From Chromera velia (lineage: Eukaryota; Sar; Chromeraceae), in the NCBI GenBank assembly GCA_018398765.1, contig JAHBMJ010002337.1, positions 1 to 20,432 on the forward strand: a DNA stretch of 20,432 nucleotides, read 5' to 3'. Made by a program: the position numbers and the translations under genes. Under the pieces are notes generated by a model that searched no databases, had not been told where the DNA came from, and saw only the letters and a list, made by a program, of their open reading frames with translations. Shown here piece after piece: positions 1,797 to 19,775 of this stretch (position 1 is the stretch's first letter; each line of letters opens with the position of its first letter).

Positions 1797-4700
1797 TCAG
1801 CTCTTGGACAGAGACACCATCTCCTCCTTCAGAGCTTCCCAAAGAGTGTGCGCCTGTTCTTCTCCCCCCAAAGGAGTGTTGAACGCAGCCTGCATGCAGA
1901 AAAGGTTGCCCCGGAAAGGGCCAGGAAGAAAGTGAAGCACAGAGAGCTATTTGCAGTTTTGTAGGAGTCAATCAACGAAGCGATGCATTCCCATCCACCA
2001 TCCCTCTCCCCTTTTGGAGGATCAAATGAAGAATATTCTGCAAGAGAAGATCAAACGGACGAATGAAGCAGAGAAGCAACCGATCGCTGCGTTCCGGCAT
2101 CTGCAGGCAGTCCCCCTTTTCCCACACACTCGCACGTACCTATACACATACACATAGACACACGCAGACACACACACGTGCGCGCGCGCACACACACACA
2201 CACTCACACGCAGACGCAAACACCGACGTACCCGCAGAACGACTCTGCCCTCGACCTTCGTGTGGATGAGGAAGAGATTTCGAGGGGAGTGGTTCAGACG
2301 TTCCAAAAGTTTCAGCTGGACCTCGTCAGAGGCGTCACGCAGTCTGCAGACGGGGGGAGGCAGCAGAGCATGAAAAGGCACATCTCGAACAGGCGCAGGA
2401 AAGAGCCAGAGAGAAGGCGGATAGGGCAAGAAAGATGAATCGAAACCACCAGTGATGGAACAGTAGATGTCTCGCAGACGAGGCTGGGGCAGTGAAGGAC
2501 AAGGACACTGATTACGCAATACTACTGGGCAGATTCTTTTTGCTTCATTCATCACAAGCCGCTCTTCTTTCTTTCCTTCCTTTCTCTTTTGCCTCTTGCT
2601 CTCTTCTTGCAAACACCAAGTCACATGAAAGCAAACAAACAGACAAGACAAACCTACCTGAAGCACACCAAACCGAATTTGACAGGGTGGGTGACCTCGA
2701 AGGACTTCGAGGGATCTGACGTGATGAGGTCAGAAAACACCTTTGCACTGCTCAGACAACGTCGAAGATACTCCTGCATACAAAAAAATGCAGCGAGGGG
2801 GACAGGCACACCAACGATACATGGGACTTCTGAAAAGGTCTGCAACTTATCTCCGTGCGCGGTTGTGTGGGAAGTTCAAGTGAAGTTCTTTGTGGACGTC
2901 TCCCGCGGAATCGAACGCACTCGCAAATCCGGAACAAAAACTCCAATCAAGCGCTTTTACCCTATTCATGCTTCCGTCCAAAGAAGTGCCCTTCATCTTC
3001 TGTCATTCGTCGATTCCCACCACGCGGGGATGAGAGACGGAAATCGTCTGTCGAGTACAACCTTGCTCTCTCATCTGCTCACTAGCTCACCTCGACTTTC
3101 GCCCTTCCAAGCAGCTTCCAGACAAAGAAAATCTTCAAAGACCGGAAACGACGCCCCAGCCCAACCTGAAGTTACCACAAAAACGGAGTGCAAGAAGAAG
3201 GAGGAGGGAAATTCTGAGATGACGAATTCAACAAAAAAACGACAGACCGAAAACAGTAGAGCGCCCCGTCGGACCAGAAAAGGAATCAAATGAGAAGAAA
3301 GACAAACGATGGGCGGAAAGAGAGAGAGACCTTTTCTTCCCAGATAAAAAAAAAGTCTCTTTCTTTCTCGGGACTTTGATCCATTTCGCCCCTCCGTATG
3401 CGTGCGTCGCGTCTTTTTTCCCCACACTCTCAACCACCTTCTGTCTGGCACCTCACTCTCGTGCGCGCACATGCGCCCTCACCTGCCAGTCCTTGTAGTC
3501 GATGACCGTCCCTGAGCTCGTGTGTTTGTTTTTGAGGAACTCGGGGGTAGCCTGGAAGACGGAGACGACGTCCTCCTTCCTCCCGATGTAGAGGACAGAA
3601 CAGTCAAATCCCACGCTGCAGCAGGGAGAGACTCTCATGCGTGGGCATGAGTGTATGCATTTAAAATCGACCATGGAAGAAAGAGAAAAAAAAAATGGAT
3701 AAATGAAAGTCGGTTGGGGGGGGATGACAGGCAGGAACATAGAGACATCCGAATGGACCACAGCAAAAAGGACAAACCAACCTTGCTTAAAAAGAGTCGC
3801 TGAGACTCGTCTGATCGCAACAGCTCATATGGCTCCTCGTAGGTGCGGGCAGAAAATGCATGGGAAGGAAGTCGCAACAAGCGGGCAGAACGCAAAAGAG
3901 AAGGGGACAAGACGCAGGCAATGTTGCACAAAGACCCCTCCCCTGCACTGACAGCATCTGCTTGTGGGGATTGAAGTTGAATGAGTCGAAATCTTCCAGA
4001 CCCTTGAAGTGCTCACGACACTCAGGAAGGAGGTTGAAGGCCCCAGCGTAAGCCTGTGTTGTGGACGAAACAGAACGTGCAGAAAAGAGAAGGCAACATT
4101 AAGAAAAAGTCATCCAGCTGTGATGAAATCACGAACACCGCGCACGAAAGATTCATCATCTACACCACCACACGGAGAAGCACGACCTCGCAGTGTTAGA
4201 TTCCAAACTTGTCAGGACCCCCAAAAGGCCGACAAACCTAAATGAAGTGGCCAAAGGTTTGGGAGTGCAAGTCAGGTTGTTGATTTGTGTCCGTCGAGGG
4301 CTCAATCAGGTGGAAGAGAAGGGCTCACATAAGAGAGGGACTGACAAGGAGAAAAAAGAGAGACCAAAAGTCGCACTGTGGCACAAAAACTTTCGTCGGA
4401 ACCTAGAGACACAGGTCTACAGATGGATGGACACGGGAAAAAACAAAAAGCAGACACACAGGCAGACAAACAGACAAAAGTGCAACCGCCCCAAGCCTAT
4501 CTGTCTGATGGGCCGTGCAGCTCCGGCTCCAAGGCTTCTTTTTTTTCCCCTGTTTTTTGCCCCAACTCTCTGTTACTGACAGCATCGCAGTGAAGCCACA
4601 CAGAGGGGAACTCTTTCCGCACAGCCGCCGCCAGGGTGCTCATGGAGTCAACCGCGTTGGTCGAGGTGGTACCCACAGTCGCGTTCACAAAACAGGGGAT

Positions 4701-6401
4701 GCGACCTGCATCCCTGTCCTTTCGCATTTCCTCAAGAAGAGCGTCAACGTCCATCCCGAGAAAACCTCCCTCTGCCCCCCCACGGGTCGGCAGCACACGA
4801 CAGCGCACACCCGCGCACTTTGCGGACTTGGCAAGTGCAGAGTGCGCCTGGTCTGTCACATATGCAACGAGTTTGGAGAAGTCGGTTCTCTTGGCCTCGT
4901 CCTCTTCTTGTTCCAGAACCTGCGAGGCCTCCTTGGCGTGTCCGTTTGCGTGTCCATTTTCGAGTGTCTTCTTTGGGTACGGCAGGAAGGCCTCGCTCCT
5001 GACTGCCCTCTCTCGGGCGCCCAGGATCACAACGAAACAGGCGTCAGAGGCCGTCATCTGGATGCACCCGCCCCCAGCACCGGAAGAGAGGAACCTGCAA
5101 GAACGGAAGTGGTGGAATCAGCTGCCGATGTGCACGAGAGCTTTTTGGCATCCCAGTCCAGCTATGCAAAGAAGAAAACAGCCGCACAGAAAAACAACAG
5201 CATGCCAAATGAAATGTCACACGATATCAAACTGCGCTACCGGCTGGTGCCTGACTTGCTGACTGACGAACTTACTGGATGGCTGGCTGACTGAGTGATC
5301 GAGCGAAACCGACCGACCGACTGACTTTTCAGGCAGATCCATTGCTTTGGCGATCCAGTCGAGTGTGACCATTTCGAGTTCCGTCATTGCAGGGGAGGTG
5401 ATCCAAGAGAACCCCACAGCGTTGAAGGCCTGTGCGAGCATGTCGCCAAGCTGACTCTCCAGAGAGGTGGCCGAAGGGAAGTAGGCCATAAAGTGGGGGT
5501 GCTGCCAGTGAGTCATGCCGGGCTTGATCACCTCCTCGACCTGCAAGAAATCAAGGGATCGCTCTGTCTCTCCCTCTCGCTGTGAATTAAGTGGGGAGAG
5601 TCGAGAAAAAAAAAAAAACAAGCCACGAAGAGGGGTAGGTAGAGTGAAGACTAGAACCTAGAGTGGGCGTGTCAGTGTATGGGCAGGCATCAGGCAAAAG
5701 CTTGAGAACTGAGGGTGCAGGTGGCAAAAGAAAAGTCGCAGAGCAGAGCAGACACGGGACAGACAAGAGACGCGGAAAGAGGGGTGCAAACTCCGACAGT
5801 CAAGCCGCCCTCATTAGCGCACCGATCATACTCCCCTCTCGAAAGGGGGGTTGGTGTTCCATAGTCCCTGGTTCATCCTCTATGAACCTTCTTCTCTTTG
5901 CGCTTCGGCACCGAAACGCACAAGTCGGCTGTTCCCCTCCAACGCACTCACCTCTTTGAGTACGGACTCAAAGGAGACGCCTTCTGCTGGGGGGGGCTGG
6001 GTGAACTTTGGGTTCTGAGTGATGAACCCGGGGGACACACGGGAAAGGACCGGAATATCCGTGGAAGCGTCTGCCAGCATTTCGCTGCAAGAAAACAGAA
6101 GTGCACACTTAATCAAAACGAGGGGCGGGACGAGGAGACGGCTCAGAGGAGACGCGCAAGCGGGTGCACTTCGGTAAGGCGACTGACTAGTAATCTGCAA
6201 CATAATCGACCAAGGCGTGGGCGTTCCTGCAGTCAAGCAAAGACAAGTGACACGAAACAGGGTGTTGACTCGGAGGTACCTCTGCCTACTGCACCAGGGC
6301 TGCGTATTACAGCGGGGCGGGACATTCACTTACTTCCTGTAGTCAGCGATTCGCTGCTTCATCTCCTTCCGGAGTCTTTCACCTTCCGTGGGCGCACTCA
6401 T
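1797..6401 (-). CDS. PLP-dependent aromatic-L-amino-acid decarboxylase / acetaldehyde synthase
   Basis: This is a group II PLP decarboxylase of the DDC/TyDC family. I rebuilt ten exons on the minus strand: 6401-6334, 6084-5952, 5540-5326, 5094-4581, 4053-3953, 3615-3483, 3165-3091, 2773-2658, 2343-2232 and 1889-1797. All phases agree, giving 1560 nt and 519 aa, close to the family's usual 480-520. Landmarks are HWQHPH (78-83), the PLP phosphate segment GAGGGCIQ (144-151), H223 in DQAHS which stacks on PLP, D309 in LHCDAAYAG which pairs with the pyridine nitrogen, the Schiff-base K341 in NPHK, and GLGRRFRSLK (390-399). The family enzymes are cytosolic homodimers, and no targeting signal is obvious. 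The catalytic-loop residue that is Tyr in true decarboxylases is F370 here (PEFLKNK), which in plants marks aldehyde synthases. Residues about 173-210 are a low-complexity insertion. An in-frame ATG at 6527 could add 42 residues, but the N-terminal helix fits the 6401 start. The substrate is unknown. Confidence 0.93.
2147..2222. repeat. (CA)n/(CG)n microsatellite
   Basis: An interrupted CA repeat with a short CGCGCG core lies in the last intron of the decarboxylase-family gene (between exons 9 and 10). On the coding strand it reads as a TG/GT tract. Confidence 0.85.
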
Positions 6402-6626
6402 CTTGAACACGGAACAGTCAGGGTTAGCTGGAGGATGATCAAGCAGATACGTAAGATCGTCTTGAAATGTAGTGCGAGATAAGAGGGAACGTTTTAACCC
6501 CGTACCAAGCGGGCAAAGCGCACTCATGCGCACTCTTCCGATCTTGCCATGCAGTTGACGAGTTTGATACGAACCAACATGGCCCCGCAAAGCCTCCCTC
6601 AAGTCTGAAAAGCGAAATTGTTCGTA
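6402..6626 (-). promoter_or_regulatory. Putative 5' UTR and proximal promoter of the decarboxylase-family gene
   Basis: These 225 bp separate the decarboxylase-family start codon from the end of the composite repeat. The frame stays open upstream of the ATG on the minus strand as far as about 6602, so a longer N terminus beginning at the ATG at 6527 cannot be excluded. I see no TATA box that I would defend. The basis for the label is position only. Confidence 0.35.
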
Positions 6627-7170
6627 CCGTATATTTCACCATACTTTGCCCACCGGGGTTTCGGGTCCTCCACCTAAACATACCAAGTTTGAAAAAACTC
6701 CAGATAAATCCATGTAAAGAGCCTGCCCAAAAGTGAGGGGGCACTCATGCATTGCAGCCTACAAGAAGCGTGCACTGCCTCAGTCACAGCTCAGGATTCC
6801 TCAATCTAACCTAGAGAGAGAAAAGAGTCGTCAGCCTCCCGGGTGGATGGTCTGGTGGGTGCCCTGCAGAAAGAAGAAAGCAACACATATGGACAGAGGG
6901 GCATGCAGGGAGACGGATGGGCAAATCTTTCAGTTCTTATCACTCTAATAAAAATTTGATAGAAAAGGCTGTTCTATGGACCTCCCCGACCTCAAAGATG
7001 TAATCAGCAACTTTGGAGACCCCCATTTGGTCACTTGAGCTGTGACCCAAGATCTCCCCCTGCCTCGACTTTGCACGATCTCTCCAGCCAGAAAAGAGAC
7101 GGCAGAGAAATGCATGCACAGGCGGCCCCGGAAGGCAGTGCAAAAGTGGGCAAAGTATGGGTGAATCTGG
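6627..7170 (+). repeat. 544 bp terminal repeat A1
   Basis: This is the first direct repeat of composite copy I. It begins CCGTATATTTCACC and ends GAATCTGG, with TA on each side (6625-6626 and 7171-7172). It differs from A2 by about half a dozen substitutions and small gaps, for example around 6983 and 7059. Confidence 0.85.
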
Positions 7171-7501
7171 TATCTGAAGAAAAATTCGTATGGGAGGTTA
7201 TAGAAGGAGGCAGGAGGCAGGGACGGCATATGAACAGGAAAGGGTCTCATGGTATACAGAAAACAAAAAACGCCATCTCTGGCCAGGAAAGCATGGCACA
7301 GCCACACAGAGCAGAATGAAAGATATAGAGGGGGGGGCACGTCTAGCGCTTTGCTGACCTGCCTTCCTCTCTCACCACAGAGAAGAGGAGAGATGCCGAG
7401 GGAGTGCACCTGCAGAGGGCATGCATGCACCAATATATACACTGAGTGACAGGCCCCTGCCGCTAGTAAATTCAGCCAAGGAAGAGAAACAAACGAGCAC
7501 A

Positions 7502-8044
7502 CCGTATATTTCACCATACTTTGCCCACCGGGGTTTCGGGTCCTCCACCTAAACATACCAAGTTTGAAAAAACTCCAGATAAATCCATGTAAAGAGCCTG
7601 CCCAAAAGTGAGGGGGCACTCATGCATTGCAGCCTACAAGAAGCGTGCACTGCCTCAGTCACAGCTCAGGATTCCTCAATCTAACCTAGAGAGAGAAAAG
7701 AGTCGTCAGCCTCCCGGGTGGACGGTCTGGTGGGTGCCCTGCAGAAAGAAGAAAGCAACACATATGGACAGAGGGGTATGCAGGGAGACGGATGGGCAAA
7801 TCTTTCAGTTCTTATCACTCTAATAAAAATTTGATAGAAAAGGCTGTTCTATGGTCCCCCCCGACCTCAAAGATGTAATCAGCAACTTTGGAGACCCCCA
7901 TTTGGTCACTTGAGCTGTGACCCAAGATCTCCCCCTACCTGACTTTGCACGATCTCTCCAGCCAGAAAAGAGACGGCAGAGAAATGCATGCACGGGCGGC
8001 CCCGGAAGGCAGTGCAAAAGTGGGCAAAGTATGGGTGAATCTGG
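7502..8044 (+). repeat. 543 bp terminal repeat A2
   Basis: This is the second direct repeat of composite copy I. Its left junction is CA rather than TA (7500-7501), while its right junction is TA (8045-8046). It has the same termini as A1. Confidence 0.85.
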
Positions 8045-12426: not shown

Positions 12427-13980
12427 TCAGCCCTCCTCCTGCACTCCTCTGGTCCCCCGAATGCATGCGCTTGCAATCAGGGTCGGATCCGGCCGCATGT
12501 CTTGCTCACATGTTGCCTCCATTTCTTACTCAATCGCTCGGCCAACCTCTTCAAGAACATCCTTGCCTCCCCCTCCATCGTGCCGTCGACCGCACTCACG
12601 AGTGAAGTGGTATCACATCCTCTGTCTATGCTTGTCTGCCCATATTTCCTCTTCTTTTCTTCTGCTGCTGCTTTGAGGGCTTGATTCCAGGTCACCTTCT
12701 CCCTCGAGGCGGCGTGTGGGTTTATTACCCTGGTATCGAAAATTGTCAGCCTCTGTGGAGCGTAGGCTTTCCAGACTTGGAAATCCCCCCTTAGCGCTGG
12801 ACATCCCTGTACCTCCCCTTCCTCTCTAATGATCGGCTCCTTTGCATGGACCACGCCTGCTAGGTATGCCTCCGCTGCGAGACTCGCCCATGTGCGGTTG
12901 ACTTCGTCATGTCGCAGCGTTGGCAGGCCCCCTACTAGACAGTTAAGGGCATGTTACAGATTACACCCTCCCCCACATCCCTCGTATCTGCTCTTCTCGG
13001 AGTCCCCCCCTACCCTCCCCTGATATCGGATTGTCATCACATCCCGGAACTCATCTGGGCTGAGATTTATTCCGTGCTCCTTTAGGGGGGTGACCGTCAG
13101 CCATCCTGACTGCCTCTTTTCCTTTGACTGCCTGACTTCCTCACACTGGTCTTCATTGTCTGCCGGCCTAGACTGGCTGCCTAACCTCTCCCACTCCTTC
13201 TCCACTGCTTCTTTGACTGCTTCCTTGTGGGCTGCCCTCATTTTTTGCCCCCGCTTCACGTGTTCGTCTGCGTCTATATCTTCTCCACGAAGGATGGCCT
13301 CTGTGATCGCTTCACTGGCTGCTGCTGAGGTCTTGTGGTCCTTGTCTACTGTTTCAGTGGGTTTGGGGATGCCTAAGCCTAGCAAACAGACAGGGAGGGC
13401 GGCAATATCAAAAGATTCTCTCAGCCACACATCGTGCTGGGTGGGGGGCCCTCTGTTCTGTCGTCCTTTCATCAGGGCAGGGATGAGGCGGTCTCTAATC
13501 GTGCCTTCCAGCTGCCCCATCTGTCCCTCCCAGTCCCCCCACCCTTGGCATTACTCATATCATAAACTTCTATTCGTGTTGCAAGGATTTGGAACAGCTA
13601 GGCTACGTATGCTTTATCGGGGCAAACTCTGCTACTACTGTGACTCTCTCCACGTTTCTGGCCCACTCTTTCACTTTCTCCTGTACCCATTTTTCTCTGT
13701 GTACGGCCATGCCTACATGCCCCCCTAGGAGACGTGTCCCCTCTACTATCTGCAGGTGGAAAACTCTGCAAAAATCTCCTTGGCTTTCTGTATAAATTTT
13801 GGAAGCACTGCGAGGATCAACTTGTCAACCTCCACTACATAACCTGCCGCTGGCCCCCTCGTGACTAACTCCCGCAGCCACACTCTCAACTGGCGCAACC
13901 AGCCAGTATTTGACGCATCATCTGCATACCATAGCTGGTGCCAGTATCTCTGGAGGGGATCGGGTTCCTGCTGCTATTTC
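12427..13980 (-). pseudogene. Decayed LINE: reverse transcriptase C-terminus with zinc knuckle and endonuclease-like tail
   Basis: Reading the minus strand from about 13980, QLWYADDASNTG gives the reverse transcriptase active-site motif (YADD at 13917-13928). After a frameshift near 13755 comes GTRLLGGHVG (palm/thumb region). Further frame changes near 13615 and 13530 lead to RDRLIPAL and LGIPKP (13520-12954). That frame ends GCGGGCNL, then an in-frame TAA (12951-12953), then HALNC, which together look like a broken C..C..H..C knuckle. The frame continues with [10 protein letters not shown], the segment ALRGDFQVW ... FDTRV ... KKRKYG resembling a restriction-like endonuclease, and CIRGTRG near the end. 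The order and motifs match non-LTR retrotransposon proteins common in algae, oomycetes and dinoflagellates. The 5' part (earlier RT motifs) is missing, as expected of 5'-truncated LINE insertions. At least three frameshifts and one stop make it non-functional. Confidence 0.8.
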
Positions 13981-14704: not shown

Positions 14705-15154
14705 GACCAGATTTCTATACATTTCCATAAACATATAGAAATCGATAGAAATCAATAGAAATCAGGCCATAATTTCTATAGGATTTCTATCAGATTTCTA
14801 TCGATTTCTATATATTTATAGAAATATATAGAAATCCGGTGAGATTTCTATAAATTATAGAAATTTGGTCCTAATTTCTATATCGAGATTTCTATGACAT
14901 TTCTATCAGATTTCTATTGATTTCTATCAGATTTTTATAACATTTCTATAACTTTTTGTAGGGTGCCGGTAGACGGCTGAGACCGGTAATTACCGGCAGC
15001 GAAGGGTTGTTTTCGATCAGTAAAGATCATAACCCTGCAATAATGATGAATTTAATGATCAATTTTCTATTGATTTTGTTCTAAAATTCTAAAATTAAAA
15101 AAAAAAAATGAGGTCCTTGATTTTTTTTAATTAAAATTTTTTAGTACAAGGCCT
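14705..15154 (-). repeat. Right inverted arm with ATTTCTAT units
   Basis: From 14705 to about 14955 the sequence is dominated by ATTTCTAT and some ATAGAAAT units in alternating orientation. About 14960-15030 is a GC-richer insertion with the perfect palindrome CCGGTAATTACCGG (14983-14996). From 15075 to 15154 come A/T runs and CAAGGCC, mirroring the left arm's outer end. Confidence 0.65.
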
Positions 15155-16212
15155 TGAATTGATATAATTTAATGACTATCTAAGGCTACAACTAATAAGG
15201 TAGTATTGAGTTGATTATAGAGTTAGAAACCGTTTAACACAGAGTATGACTGGTGTACTACTCATAAGCATCAATTAATAAAGAAGGTGAAGTTAATATA
15301 ATATAGTTTTATTTATGGTAACCTCCCTGAACCTAAGTGCCACTTAAAAAAATATAATCATTGCCAAGATCATCTCTATCTGCGGCATCTTTTTTTAAGA
15401 GACCGTCTACGCCTGCGGCATAGATGGTCAAGGCACCGTCCAGATATGCGGCTTTGGCTTTCAAGACACTATAAATGATCCATGCCTGCGGCGCGGACTT
15501 TCAAGCTTATCCAAAAATGCGATCTGAATTTTCAAGTACTAGTTAGGTCTAGAGAGGTTTTTATGGTTTTCAATTAAAAAGCTTGATGTACGACTTTTAT
15601 TTTATTTATGTTTTGTAGATATAAAAAATTAACTGTTACTAAAACACTGTTCTTTGCGTTAGTTTACGCTAGTTTACGTACTATTATATTAATTAATATT
15701 AATACACATACCGATTTTTTATTGTTCTATGAGAAACCGATCTAGATTACCTTGAATAAAGACATGAGGGTTATTGATCTGGTATATGATCTGGTGTAAT
15801 CTGGTGGAAGATAGAGATATTGAACTAAGAATAAAAATTAGAACTGTAGTAGATTAGGGTAGGTAAACAGCCTTATCAAGACTAATCAAAGCCATCAGGC
15901 CGAAACATGCATATATGCAGAGACTGCGAAGTACCTCAAGGCTTTATAACCGGGCAGGTTGAGCTACCCTCACCAAGTAAAAACGTGGGGGAGGAGAAAT
16001 TAAGTAAAAGTTGCGCGCGGGCAGATGATGATGATTGGAGAAGGTGCATGAAGGTGCTATTCCCTTAGTGATCCGATGATTGATCTCGCGTCGATCATCG
16101 CGATTCAATGCACGCGCACTAAAAAAAAACCCGGAACAACGCGAGTTTTTTTTTTGCGCCCACAGTCACGAAGTATCAGATTGCCTCTGCAATCTCCCAG
16201 CCTGCAGGTATA
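15155..16212. other. AT-rich intergenic region, no gene
   Basis: There is no coding frame here. Visible structure includes degenerate TGCGGC-containing units spaced 32-41 bp apart (15379, 15412, 15444, 15485, 15517), three copies of ATCTGGT (15776-15807), a palindrome TGCATATATGCA (about 15910) and homopolymer A and T runs near 16122 and 16146. Composition returns to about average from roughly 15990 on. Confidence 0.5.
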
Positions 16213-16756
16213 CCAGATTCACCCATACTTTGCCCACTTTCGCACTGCCTTCCGGGGCCGCCTGTGCATGCATTTCTCTGCCGTCTCTTTTCTGGCTGGA
16301 GAGATCGTGTAAAGTCGAGGTAGGAGGAGATCTTGGGTCATAGCTCAAGTGACCAAATGGGGGTCTCCAAAGTTGCTGATTACATCTTTGAGGTCGGGGG
16401 GGTCCATAGAATAGCCTTTTCCATCAAATTTTTATTGGAGTGATAAGAACTGAAAGATTTGCCCATCCGTCTCCCTGCATGCCCCTCTGTCCATATGTGT
16501 TGCTTTCTTCTTTCTGCAGGGCACCCACTAGACCGTCCACCCAGGAGGCTGACGACTCTTTTCTCTCTCTAGGTTAGATTGAGGAATCCTGAGCTGTGAC
16601 TGAGGCAGTGCACGCTTCTTCTAGGCTGCAATGCATGAGTGCCCCCTCACTTTTGGGCAGGCTCTTTACATAGATTTATCTGAAGTTTTTTTAAACTTGG
16701 TATGTTTAGGTGGAGGACCCGAAACCCCGGTGGGCAAAGTATAATGAAATATACGG
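16213..16756 (-). repeat. 544 bp terminal repeat B1
   Basis: This is the repeat distal to the MYND gene in composite copy II. It starts CCAGATTCACCC on the plus strand and ends GAAATATACGG. The internal junction is TG on the plus strand (CA in element orientation), the same as the A2 left junction of copy I. Confidence 0.85.
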
Positions 16757-17087
16757 TGTGCTCGTTTGTTTCTCTTCCTTGGCTAAATTTACTAGCGGCA
16801 GGGGCCTGTCACTCAGTGTATATATTGGTGCATGCATGCCCTCTGCAGGTGCACTCCCTCGGCATCTCTCCTCTTCTCTGTGGTGAGAGAGGAAGGCAGG
16901 TCAGCAAAGCGCTAGACGTGCCCCCCCCTCTGTATCTTTCATTCTGCTCTGTGTGGCTGTGCCATGCTTTCCTGGCCAGAGATGGCGTTTTTTGTTTTCT
17001 GTATACCATGAGACCCTTTCCTGTTCATATGCTGTCCCTGCCTCCTGCCTCCTTCTATAACCTCCCATATGAATTTTTCTTCAGATA

Positions 17088-17631
17088 CCAGATTTACCCA
17101 TACTTTGCCCACTTTCGCACTGCCTTCCGGGGCCGCCTGTGCATGTATTTCTCTGCCGTCTCTTTTCTGGCTGGAGAGATCGTGCAAAGTCGAGGTAGGA
17201 GGAGATCTTGGGTCATAGCTCAAGTGACCAAATGGGGGTCTCCAAAGTTGCTGATTACATCTTTGAGGTCGGGGGGGTCCATAGAATAGCCTTTTCCATC
17301 AAATTTTTATTGGAGTGATAAGAACTGAAAGATTTGCCCATCCGTCTCCCTACATGCCCCTCTGTCCATATGTGTCACTTTCTTCTTTCTGCAGGGCACC
17401 CACCAGACCGTCCACCCGGGAGGCTGACGACTCTTTTCTCTCTCTAGGTTAGATTGAGGAATCCTGAGCTATGACTGAGGCAGTGCACGCTTCTTGTAGG
17501 CTGCAATGCATGAGTGCCCCCTCATTTTTGGGCAGGCTCTTTACATGGATTTATCTAGAGTTTTTTTAAACTTGGTATGTTTAGGTGGAGGACCCGAAAC
17601 CCCGGTGGGCAAAGTATGATGAAATATACGG
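17088..17631 (-). repeat. 544 bp terminal repeat B2
   Basis: This is the repeat proximal to the MYND gene in composite copy II, with the same termini as the other three copies. It carries a few private substitutions (for example ATTTACCC instead of ATTCACCC near its start). Confidence 0.85.
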
Positions 17632-17690
17632 TATACACATGCACAAAATCGATATACATCTCGATCGAACCAACTCATGAATCTCACTGA

Positions 17691-17874: not shown

Positions 17875-17941
17875 GTTGTGACGGTGGAAGTAACCATCTC
17901 TTTGTTGTCCTGCGAGAACACTTTCAGTGCGTCTTGTCGAC

Positions 17942-19775
17942 ATGAAGCTGCACTGGTTTTCAATTGACGAGCCCTCTCGCTCCGAGGCTCTGAAGACCGC
18001 CACTGATTTCCCTCTTGATTGTGGTCTCGCGATCACAACAAACGAAGGTATCCCCGGCGTGGATCCTGGCACTGAGGCCGTCTACTCCATCATTCTTTAC
18101 ATCATGAAAGCCCCATCCAATTCAGCCGATGTTGGTGACATGCTCGTTTTCATCGATCTCTTGAAGGTGCCAAGCAAGCCCGATTCCAAGTTTTCGAAAA
18201 ATGAGGAACCTCTTGGCACTGAAAACAAAGTCTTGTTTCTTTCCCAAGCACTTGACATCGCCATTGAAGCCCGAAGCCTGCCCGCAGCCCTCATGATACA
18301 CGGCTCTGCGATGAGAGTCCAGAGAGGCATCGGAAAGACTTCGAAGGCTACCAATATTGCGATCGCAAAGATGCAGCAACGTGCAGCGGCTTTCGCTGTC
18401 GAGGCCTTGCATCAACCGATGTCCACATTCGTAACTTTTGCCGGAGAACCCAAAAAAGAGTCCGCGTTTGTGAAGGCCCTGGCCGCACGCTTGCTCAACG
18501 TCGATTGCTACACAAAGGGGTATCTTGTGAAACTCTTCGAAAGCGCGATTGATGTTTGCGATTTCTTTGACAACCCGTCCAACAGCCTGCAAGACCGTTC
18601 CGCTGCGGATCTCTACTCACAAGTTCTGACGCACGTGCCTAGCTACAGATCATGCTCTGCTCTCTGGCACAATGCGGGGCTGAACGCCAAAAACCGAATG
18701 ATCGATCTGATGGAAGCCAACAGCACGTGTGAGAAGGTACAGTGCGAGGCAGCGAGATGGTTCAAAAAGGCAGAGAGGTATTTCTTCAAGCTCGCCAGCA
18801 TTCTACAGCAGCAGAAGGACCCACTCGAGTTGACCAGGCTGTTCTTCCTCAATGACGGGATCGTGAAGCTGTTCTACTCAGACGTGATCCCCATGATCGA
18901 AAAGGGCGCCGGCGCGAAGATTCTTGGGACCAAACAGTCAGTCATCCAGTTTCAGATGCAGCCATTCTCCTTGCGCCGATTGGGCAAAACAGCCAGTCCA
19001 TGAGTGTCGTGACTCCATTCAGTCGATTCTTCCTCCAAGGCACTTTCTTCAGAGGAGGAGTGTCTTTCTTCCTATCAGGGTGGTCATGCAGCCTGGTCAA
19101 AGACACGGAGGCATCTCTCAGCGTGAATATGTGTTTTGGTTTGCAGGCAGAGGGCAGTTCAAGTGTCCCGAGCGCAAAACATCCTTCAACAGCTCATGAA
19201 AGTTCACTTCCCGGACCTGTGCCACCCCACGAGTCACGAATTGAATTCAAAGTTCCGACCGCAGCCAGAAAGCAGAAAAGCCGAGCAGAACTTGATCTTC
19301 TCCAAGCTTGGAGCTGTGGATGTTCAGAAGTGTCATGGCTGCGGAAAGAGCGGGGTGGAACTGAAGAGGTAGGCGGACAAACAGGGTGCTCGGCGGAAAG
19401 AAGCTAGAAGAATTGTTTGTCGTCTCTCCGCCTCTGCCTTTGTTTGTACTTTTGTGTGAAACCTATAGCTTTGTCTGTGCTTGCGCCTCCACGCTTGTTG
19501 CTCTCTATTTGCGTTTGTTCACGTCTTGGTATATTTGTCTTTAGAAAACTCGACTGCAAAGCCTTAGGAATTGATGCGAAACCAACGCAGAGTGTCCATT
19601 TGTGCCTGCCTTTGCCTGCCTCGATCTTTTTTCATGCAGGTGTGGACAGTGCAAGAACCGGCTCTACTGCAATCCCGAGTGCCAGAGAGCTGATTGGAAG
19701 ACTCACAAGCATCTTTGCATGGGGAAGAAGGCGGGACGTGAAAGACTGGTCGAGCAGCAGCGGGGAAGGGCCTGA
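17942..19775 (+). CDS. MYND-type zinc-finger protein
   Basis: Three exons join in phase: 17942-18936, 19147-19368 and 19640-19775, giving 450 aa. The first donor is GTCAGT, which rebuilds a CAG codon across the junction. The continuous frame past it (to 19003) is read-through into the intron. The C-terminal finger is complete: C394, C397, C407, C410, C416, C420, H428 and C432 in the MYND spacing C-x2-C ... C-x2-C-x5-C-x3-C-x7-H-x3-C. Intron 2 falls just before C407, inside the finger. MYND fingers bind zinc and usually proline-rich partners. The N-terminal 390 residues look mostly helical, with no catalytic motif, SET domain or membrane segment that I recognise, so the molecular role is unknown. 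The start is the first ATG after an in-frame TAA; an upstream exon cannot be excluded. The composite repeat ends 310 bp upstream. Confidence 0.87.

Follow-up and report, generated by a model that had tools for sequence, protein, structure and literature searches.

Does a protein of the aromatic amino acid decarboxylase (AAAD) family still make amines when the tyrosine in its catalytic loop is replaced by phenylalanine, or does it make aldehydes? This question is raised by a minus-strand gene at positions 6401..1797 of a 20,432-nt stretch of DNA (the window), for which an original prediction, made from the letters of the sequence, had proposed a Phe-for-Tyr replacement and a possible aromatic acetaldehyde synthase (AAS). 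The rule behind this proposal, that a loop phenylalanine diverts the enzyme to aldehyde formation, agrees with published mutagenesis and with an assayed fungal enzyme. The Y332F variant of DDC is reported to form aldehyde and no amine (PMC7497351), plant enzymes are described as interconvertible in both directions by a Tyr/Phe swap (PMC7497351, PMC11308512), and a Tyr-to-Phe variant of HDC reportedly behaves alike (PMC11308512). In fungi, purified IasA from Psilocybe mexicana, which carries Phe329, is described as converting Trp to indole-3-acetaldehyde and as being active on 5-OH-Trp, Dopa, Phe and Tyr as well (PMC11046786). The original prediction further held that the tyrosine itself protonates the quinonoid intermediate in the plant enzymes. 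This role is less settled, as a review presents the proposal that the loop tyrosine acts indirectly, by stabilizing an active-site histidine that is the protonating residue (PMC7497351).

Structure of the gene and family of its product

The gene model comprises eleven minus-strand exons, whose boundaries were set by reading frame, splice signals and homology. Exon 1 (6401..6334) opens with a putative ATG start at 6401 and ends at a GT donor, and exon 2 (6226..6188), bounded by an AG acceptor and a GT donor, continues in frame and aligns to the AAAD N-terminal helix. Exon 3 (6084..5952) is defined by splice signals and frame. Exon 4 (5540..5326), which aligns with AAAD chains, encodes the segments THWQHPHFMAYFPS and VGFSWITSPA. 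Exon 5 (5094..4581) encodes the small-loop histidine His236 (within DQAHS), the segment TVGTTST and Asp322 (within WLHCDA); exon 6 (4053..3953) contains AYAG and the NPHK motif, with the PLP lysine Lys354 and, directly after it, an unusual Gln355. The large catalytic loop, TPEFLKNKHTSSG, lies in exon 7 (3615..3483), which also aligns with the AAAD chains. Exon 8 (3165..3091) encodes VGLGRRFRSLK and contains Gly405, exons 9 (2773..2658) and 10 (2343..2232) are defined by splice signals and frame, and exon 11 (1889..1797) ends in a TGA stop; the last exon join, of VLR to AAFNTPL, is, like the start, presumptive. Joined, the exons yield 1599 nt including the stop and a protein of 532 residues. 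The original prediction of a 519-residue product with H223, D309 and K341 matches the same model begun at Met14; counted from Met1, these residues are H236, D322 and K354.

All ten introns, which range from 103 to 527 nt, begin with GT and end with AG, and their number points to a eukaryotic host. Four of them share the 5’ end GTCAGT (minus-strand donors 6187, 5325, 4580 and 3952), while GTAAGT and GTGAGT each occur once. The coding sequence has GC fractions of 0.591, 0.420 and 0.683 at codon positions 1, 2 and 3, respectively, and none of 2000 base-shuffles of the 1599 nt stayed open. On account of the intact frame, the GC distribution across codon positions and the shuffling result, this is very likely a genuine coding gene.

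The assignment of the product to the aromatic decarboxylase family was confirmed by a Pfam search, in which the 532-residue protein had PF00282 as its sole match (E 3.7e-95; 319.3 bits against a curated cut-off of 27), with the PLP lysine and the aspartate of the family in place. Among the PDB matches listed by HMMER, the best is 6eei (394 bits), a chain titled ‘tyrosine decarboxylase 1’ that is described in the literature as the Arabidopsis phenylacetaldehyde synthase (PMC11046786). It is followed by 9dui and the DDC chain 1js3 (364 bits), human DDC (355 bits) and five plant-type TDC/TyDC chains (~323-350 bits). Overall, the AAAD, AAS and HDC chains score between 244 bits (7xin, the weakest) and 394 bits, and by PDB score the protein thus sides with the AAADs, away from GAD, CSAD and DABA decarboxylases; the trees described below comprise the window protein, AAAD/AAS rows and bacterial relatives. 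An identity as GAD, CSAD or DABA decarboxylase was rejected, since the other listed chains score at most 117.3 bits and four NCBIfam matches fall far under their cut-offs. Over aligned columns, the protein is 44.3% identical to 6eei, 38.5-42.2% identical to the remaining five PDB rows from plants and mammals, and 35.9-42.0% identical to the best 80 of at least 573 confirmed bacterial relatives. Pattern scans with the protein and with a 3-row alignment returned no relatives from viral contigs among the matches listed.

The catalytic loop and its surroundings

The minus-strand translation of exon 7 contains the loop TPEFLKNKHTSSGTVIDYKDWQ, in which the TTC codon at 3539..3537 encodes Phe383. In both HMMER and MAFFT alignments this residue is matched with Tyr332 of the human DDC chain 3rbf (P330-T331-Y332), at the loop position that the original prediction had proposed. 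Among plant chains, its counterparts are Y350 in 6eem and Y348 in 6eew, reported to be the loop tyrosines in TyDC from opium poppy and in TDC from Catharanthus (PMC11308512), and Phe338 in 6eei. A different tyrosine occupying the loop position was sought in the alignments to DDC, TyDC, TDC and AAS chains, and none was found by either program. Because Phe383 lies in the middle of its exon and is flanked by conserved residues, the choice of splice sites leaves it unchanged, and a splicing alternative that eliminates it was ruled out.

To place this replacement within the family, the loop column was read in 86 other aligned sequences, namely the best 80 of at least 573 confirmed bacterial relatives and six plant and mammal PDB rows, the latter forming the eukaryotic comparison and including one row, 6liu, that is without its C-terminal part. 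The column holds tyrosine in 80 sequences and phenylalanine in six. Among the 80 bacterial sequences, the counts are 75 and five, which is not an unbiased frequency, as these sequences were picked as best-scoring against a query that itself bears phenylalanine; among the six PDB rows, phenylalanine occurs in 6eei only. Tyrosine is also present in the loops of 1js3, 9hrh, 8x0o and 6khn, which are outside the tree set, and the tally leaves aside 6eeq (listed as a 4-hydroxyphenylacetaldehyde synthase), 3k40, 6jrl, 4e1o and 7xin.

The original prediction also held that all other key residues are kept. This is true of His236, Asp322 and Lys354, which are identical in all 86 other sequences, but not of the residue that follows the PLP lysine, which is Gln355 here, tryptophan in 85 of the 86 relatives, phenylalanine in one and glutamine in none. 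Met165 is similarly distinct, as the relatives carry Asp, Gly or Asn at this site. Considering the 96 columns with a conservation of 95% or more among the 86 relatives, the window protein keeps 84 and breaks 12, the most of any row, though close to the next, as five plant and mammal rows break 11, 10, 10, 10 and 9 columns and the bacterial sequence L039 breaks 9. 6eei lies outside the twelve highest break counts and therefore breaks no more than four. In addition, the stretch of residues ~187-222 is longer than its counterpart in DDC or 6eei.

At 11 alignment positions that we take to line the substrate cleft, the window protein differs from 6eei at one, from human DDC, 9dui, 6eem and 6liu at two each, and from 6eew, presumably the Catharanthus TDC, at four. 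The place of Gly405 is occupied by glycine in 6eew and 6eei and by serine in the TyDC rows 6eem and 6liu. Judged from these residues, the pocket fits substrates of the Phe/Tyr/Dopa/Trp type, with no single one of them picked out.

Predicted reaction and competing explanations

Among the known enzymes compared, the closest to the window protein is the Arabidopsis phenylacetaldehyde synthase 6eei, with which it shares the loop phenylalanine within an identical PEFLKNK segment and the small-loop histidine; the plant enzyme differs in having tryptophan in place of Gln355 and glycine in place of Met165, in its 44% identity and in grouping with the plant clade. Human DDC (chain 3rbf, 41% identity) has the catalytic His, Asp and Lys in common with the window protein, but carries Tyr332, has tryptophan after the PLP lysine and makes amines. 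The fungal AASs IasA (Psilocybe mexicana) and DHPAAS (P. cubensis) are also eukaryotic AAAD-family enzymes with a loop phenylalanine, a likeness drawn from their published descriptions (PMC11046786, PMC7497351). The insect DHPAAS 6jrl is an aldehyde-forming AAAD relative by sequence, yet insect AASs are reported to combine asparagine, in place of histidine at residue 192, with a retained tyrosine (PMC10380194), in contrast to His236 and Phe383 here, and an insect-type AAS was rejected because the small-loop histidine is kept. The window protein thus displays the features of the plant/fungal type, with Phe383 on the sites of Y332, Y348 and Y350 and with His236 kept in the small loop.

Based on these comparisons, the gene product is probably a dimeric, PLP-dependent aromatic acetaldehyde synthase of the plant/fungal type. 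The large-loop phenylalanine and small-loop histidine, paired as in 6eei, make decarboxylation followed by attack of O2 on the quinonoid the best inference for its chemistry. In the proposed mechanism, Lys354 would hold the PLP, Asp322 would tune the nitrogen of the PLP ring and His236 would stack on the ring. The amino acid, which the 6eei-like pocket suggests to be of the Phe/Tyr/Dopa/Trp type, would be decarboxylated to the quinonoid. As Phe383 would be unable to replace the function of DDC Tyr332, the quinonoid would stay unprotonated, no amine would form, and reaction with O2 would release aldehyde, CO2, NH3 and H2O2. The enzyme would probably act in the cytosol. The terminal branch of the protein measures 3.2 changes per site (see below), and rules derived from plant enzymes may therefore not transfer to it.

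The main alternative to an aldehyde synthase is a mainly amine-forming or bifunctional decarboxylase, in which the quinonoid would receive its proton from water or from a residue elsewhere and Phe383 would divert the reaction incompletely. A bifunctional precedent is reported in PsTyDC6, which has an AAAD-like site and yields both amine and aldehyde (PMC8927377), His236, itself a proposed proton donor, is retained, and Gln355, Met165 and the changes along the long branch could compensate for the missing tyrosine. We nevertheless consider this explanation unlikely, as Tyr-to-Phe exchange in DDC and plant AAADs is reported to redirect the reaction to aldehyde, with loss of the amine in DDC (PMC7497351, PMC11308512). 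Slightly lower still do we rate the chance that the protein is a PF00282 enzyme with an altered substrate or reaction (e.g. one using a non-aromatic amino acid), or one that is decaying, so that Phe383 is no aldehyde switch. Gln355, Met165, the 12 broken columns of 96, the longer 187-222 stretch and the branch of 3.2 changes per site are all compatible with such a change, and those plant AASs that are related to serine decarboxylases are described as accepting Met and Leu besides Phe and Trp (PMC4177580). However, the frame is intact, 84 of the 96 near-invariant columns are kept, His236, Asp322 and Lys354 among them, and the pocket positions closely match those of 6eei and DDC. Finally, the enzyme could be an ordinary decarboxylase whose true codon is TAC (Tyr), as TTC differs from it by one base and a single assembly was available. 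This we regard as highly improbable; the remainder of exon 7 is clean and in frame, and a random error that hits exactly codon 383 and yields phenylalanine is unlikely a priori.

If the aldehyde synthase is active as predicted, the one-residue amine/aldehyde switch of plants and mushrooms would extend to another eukaryotic lineage, and an annotation as ‘decarboxylase’, made from family membership only, would name the wrong reaction. Such activity would provide a one-step path to phenylacetaldehyde, 4-hydroxyphenylacetaldehyde or indole-3-acetaldehyde, the last an auxin precursor, with H2O2 as by-product.

Origin of the phenylalanine, bacterial homologues and the rest of the window

Phylogenetic trees were used to examine how the window protein came to share its phenylalanine with 6eei. 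Together with the six PDB rows from plants and mammals, the window protein splits from the bacteria with a support of 98 in a quick 87-row tree and of 100/99 in a 27-row tree; in a more careful 87-row tree, from which the loop column had been omitted, a seven-row set that includes the window protein obtained 100/98. The very long terminal branch of the window protein may reflect fast evolution or missing sampled kin. In the best 27-row tree this protein stands beside all four plants, a position unsupported at 59/17, and the plant rows form a clade that excludes it. Of three AU tests on the 27-row tree, the one joining the window protein and 6eei in a clade weakly rejected this grouping (p 0.033, uncorrected), whereas neither the grouping with animals (p 0.49) nor that of the six rows without the window protein (p 0.22) was rejected. 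The weak rejection favours a separate origin of the residue without proving it, and Phe383 and the plant phenylalanine probably arose in separate events. Parsimony requires at least six Tyr/Phe changes, four of them within the bacteria, on the tree without the loop column, and five and three, respectively, on the quick tree with it; as the forks within Micromonospora are poorly supported, we give the bacterial count as three or four.

The Tyr/Phe switch and its chemistry are already known, and what the gene would add, if the host is a protist, is a new natural example from one more eukaryotic lineage. A fuller reading, in which the protein is an independently arisen AAS outside plants, fungi and animals that combines the Tyr-to-Phe change with Trp-to-Gln, perhaps in a retuned oxygen-using site, is offered tentatively and is rather doubtful. 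Were it true, then, with the three or four bacterial changes included, the family as a whole would have taken this exit repeatedly. Among the open-licence papers listed, judged by their titles and the openings of their abstracts, none described an AAS of the AAAD family in protists, algae or bacteria, which is a weak negative. A different bacterial PLP enzyme, CcbF of lincosamide biosynthesis, is described as forming an aldehyde via decarboxylation and oxidative deamination (PMC11794154).

The five bacterial relatives with a loop phenylalanine (L016, L031, L044, L045 and L060, among the best 80 of at least 573) adjoin close relatives with tyrosine in the trees; in Micromonospora three sequences have phenylalanine and two have tyrosine. 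Judged by this residue, the five are candidate aldehyde synthases and look like a further unexplored group, and such natural variants allow the Tyr/Phe rule to be tested directly throughout the family. Scans of 15 of the 16 non-enzyme frames at the five Phe loci, and of five frames, a part of those present, beside the Tyr loci L068 and L035 (flanks of at most 3 kb), gave no match to an aldehyde dehydrogenase, an alcohol dehydrogenase or a catalase. Other matches included, in Micromonospora, a kinase and a rhamnogalacturonan lyase and, at the Tyr locus L068, a Rieske-type ring hydroxylase. The neighbour genes scanned gave no hint of a pathway and neither aid nor hurt the aldehyde-synthase reading.

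Elsewhere in the window, two inverted arms at 6625-7940 and 16318-17633, each of 1316 nt and 97% complementary to one another, lie 8.4 kb apart, the left one starting ~220 nt upstream of the ATG of the decarboxylase gene. Each side also has direct repeats at a spacing of 875 nt, and the arms possibly belong to a large foldback or terminal-inverted-repeat element. No Pfam match was obtained for a sample of 17 frames outside the decarboxylase gene, most of which lie within the arms or in the interval separating them. Among the frames without a Pfam match are two adjoining minus-strand ones of 125 and 188 residues at 12477-13520, which by eye look like the end of a retroelement of the reverse-transcriptase type. 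A plus-strand open reading frame of 358 residues at 17927-19003, just beyond the right arm, had no Pfam match at E 0.1 and is possibly another gene. The GC fraction drops to 0.334 at 15001-16000, as compared to 0.427-0.551 in the other 1-kb steps.
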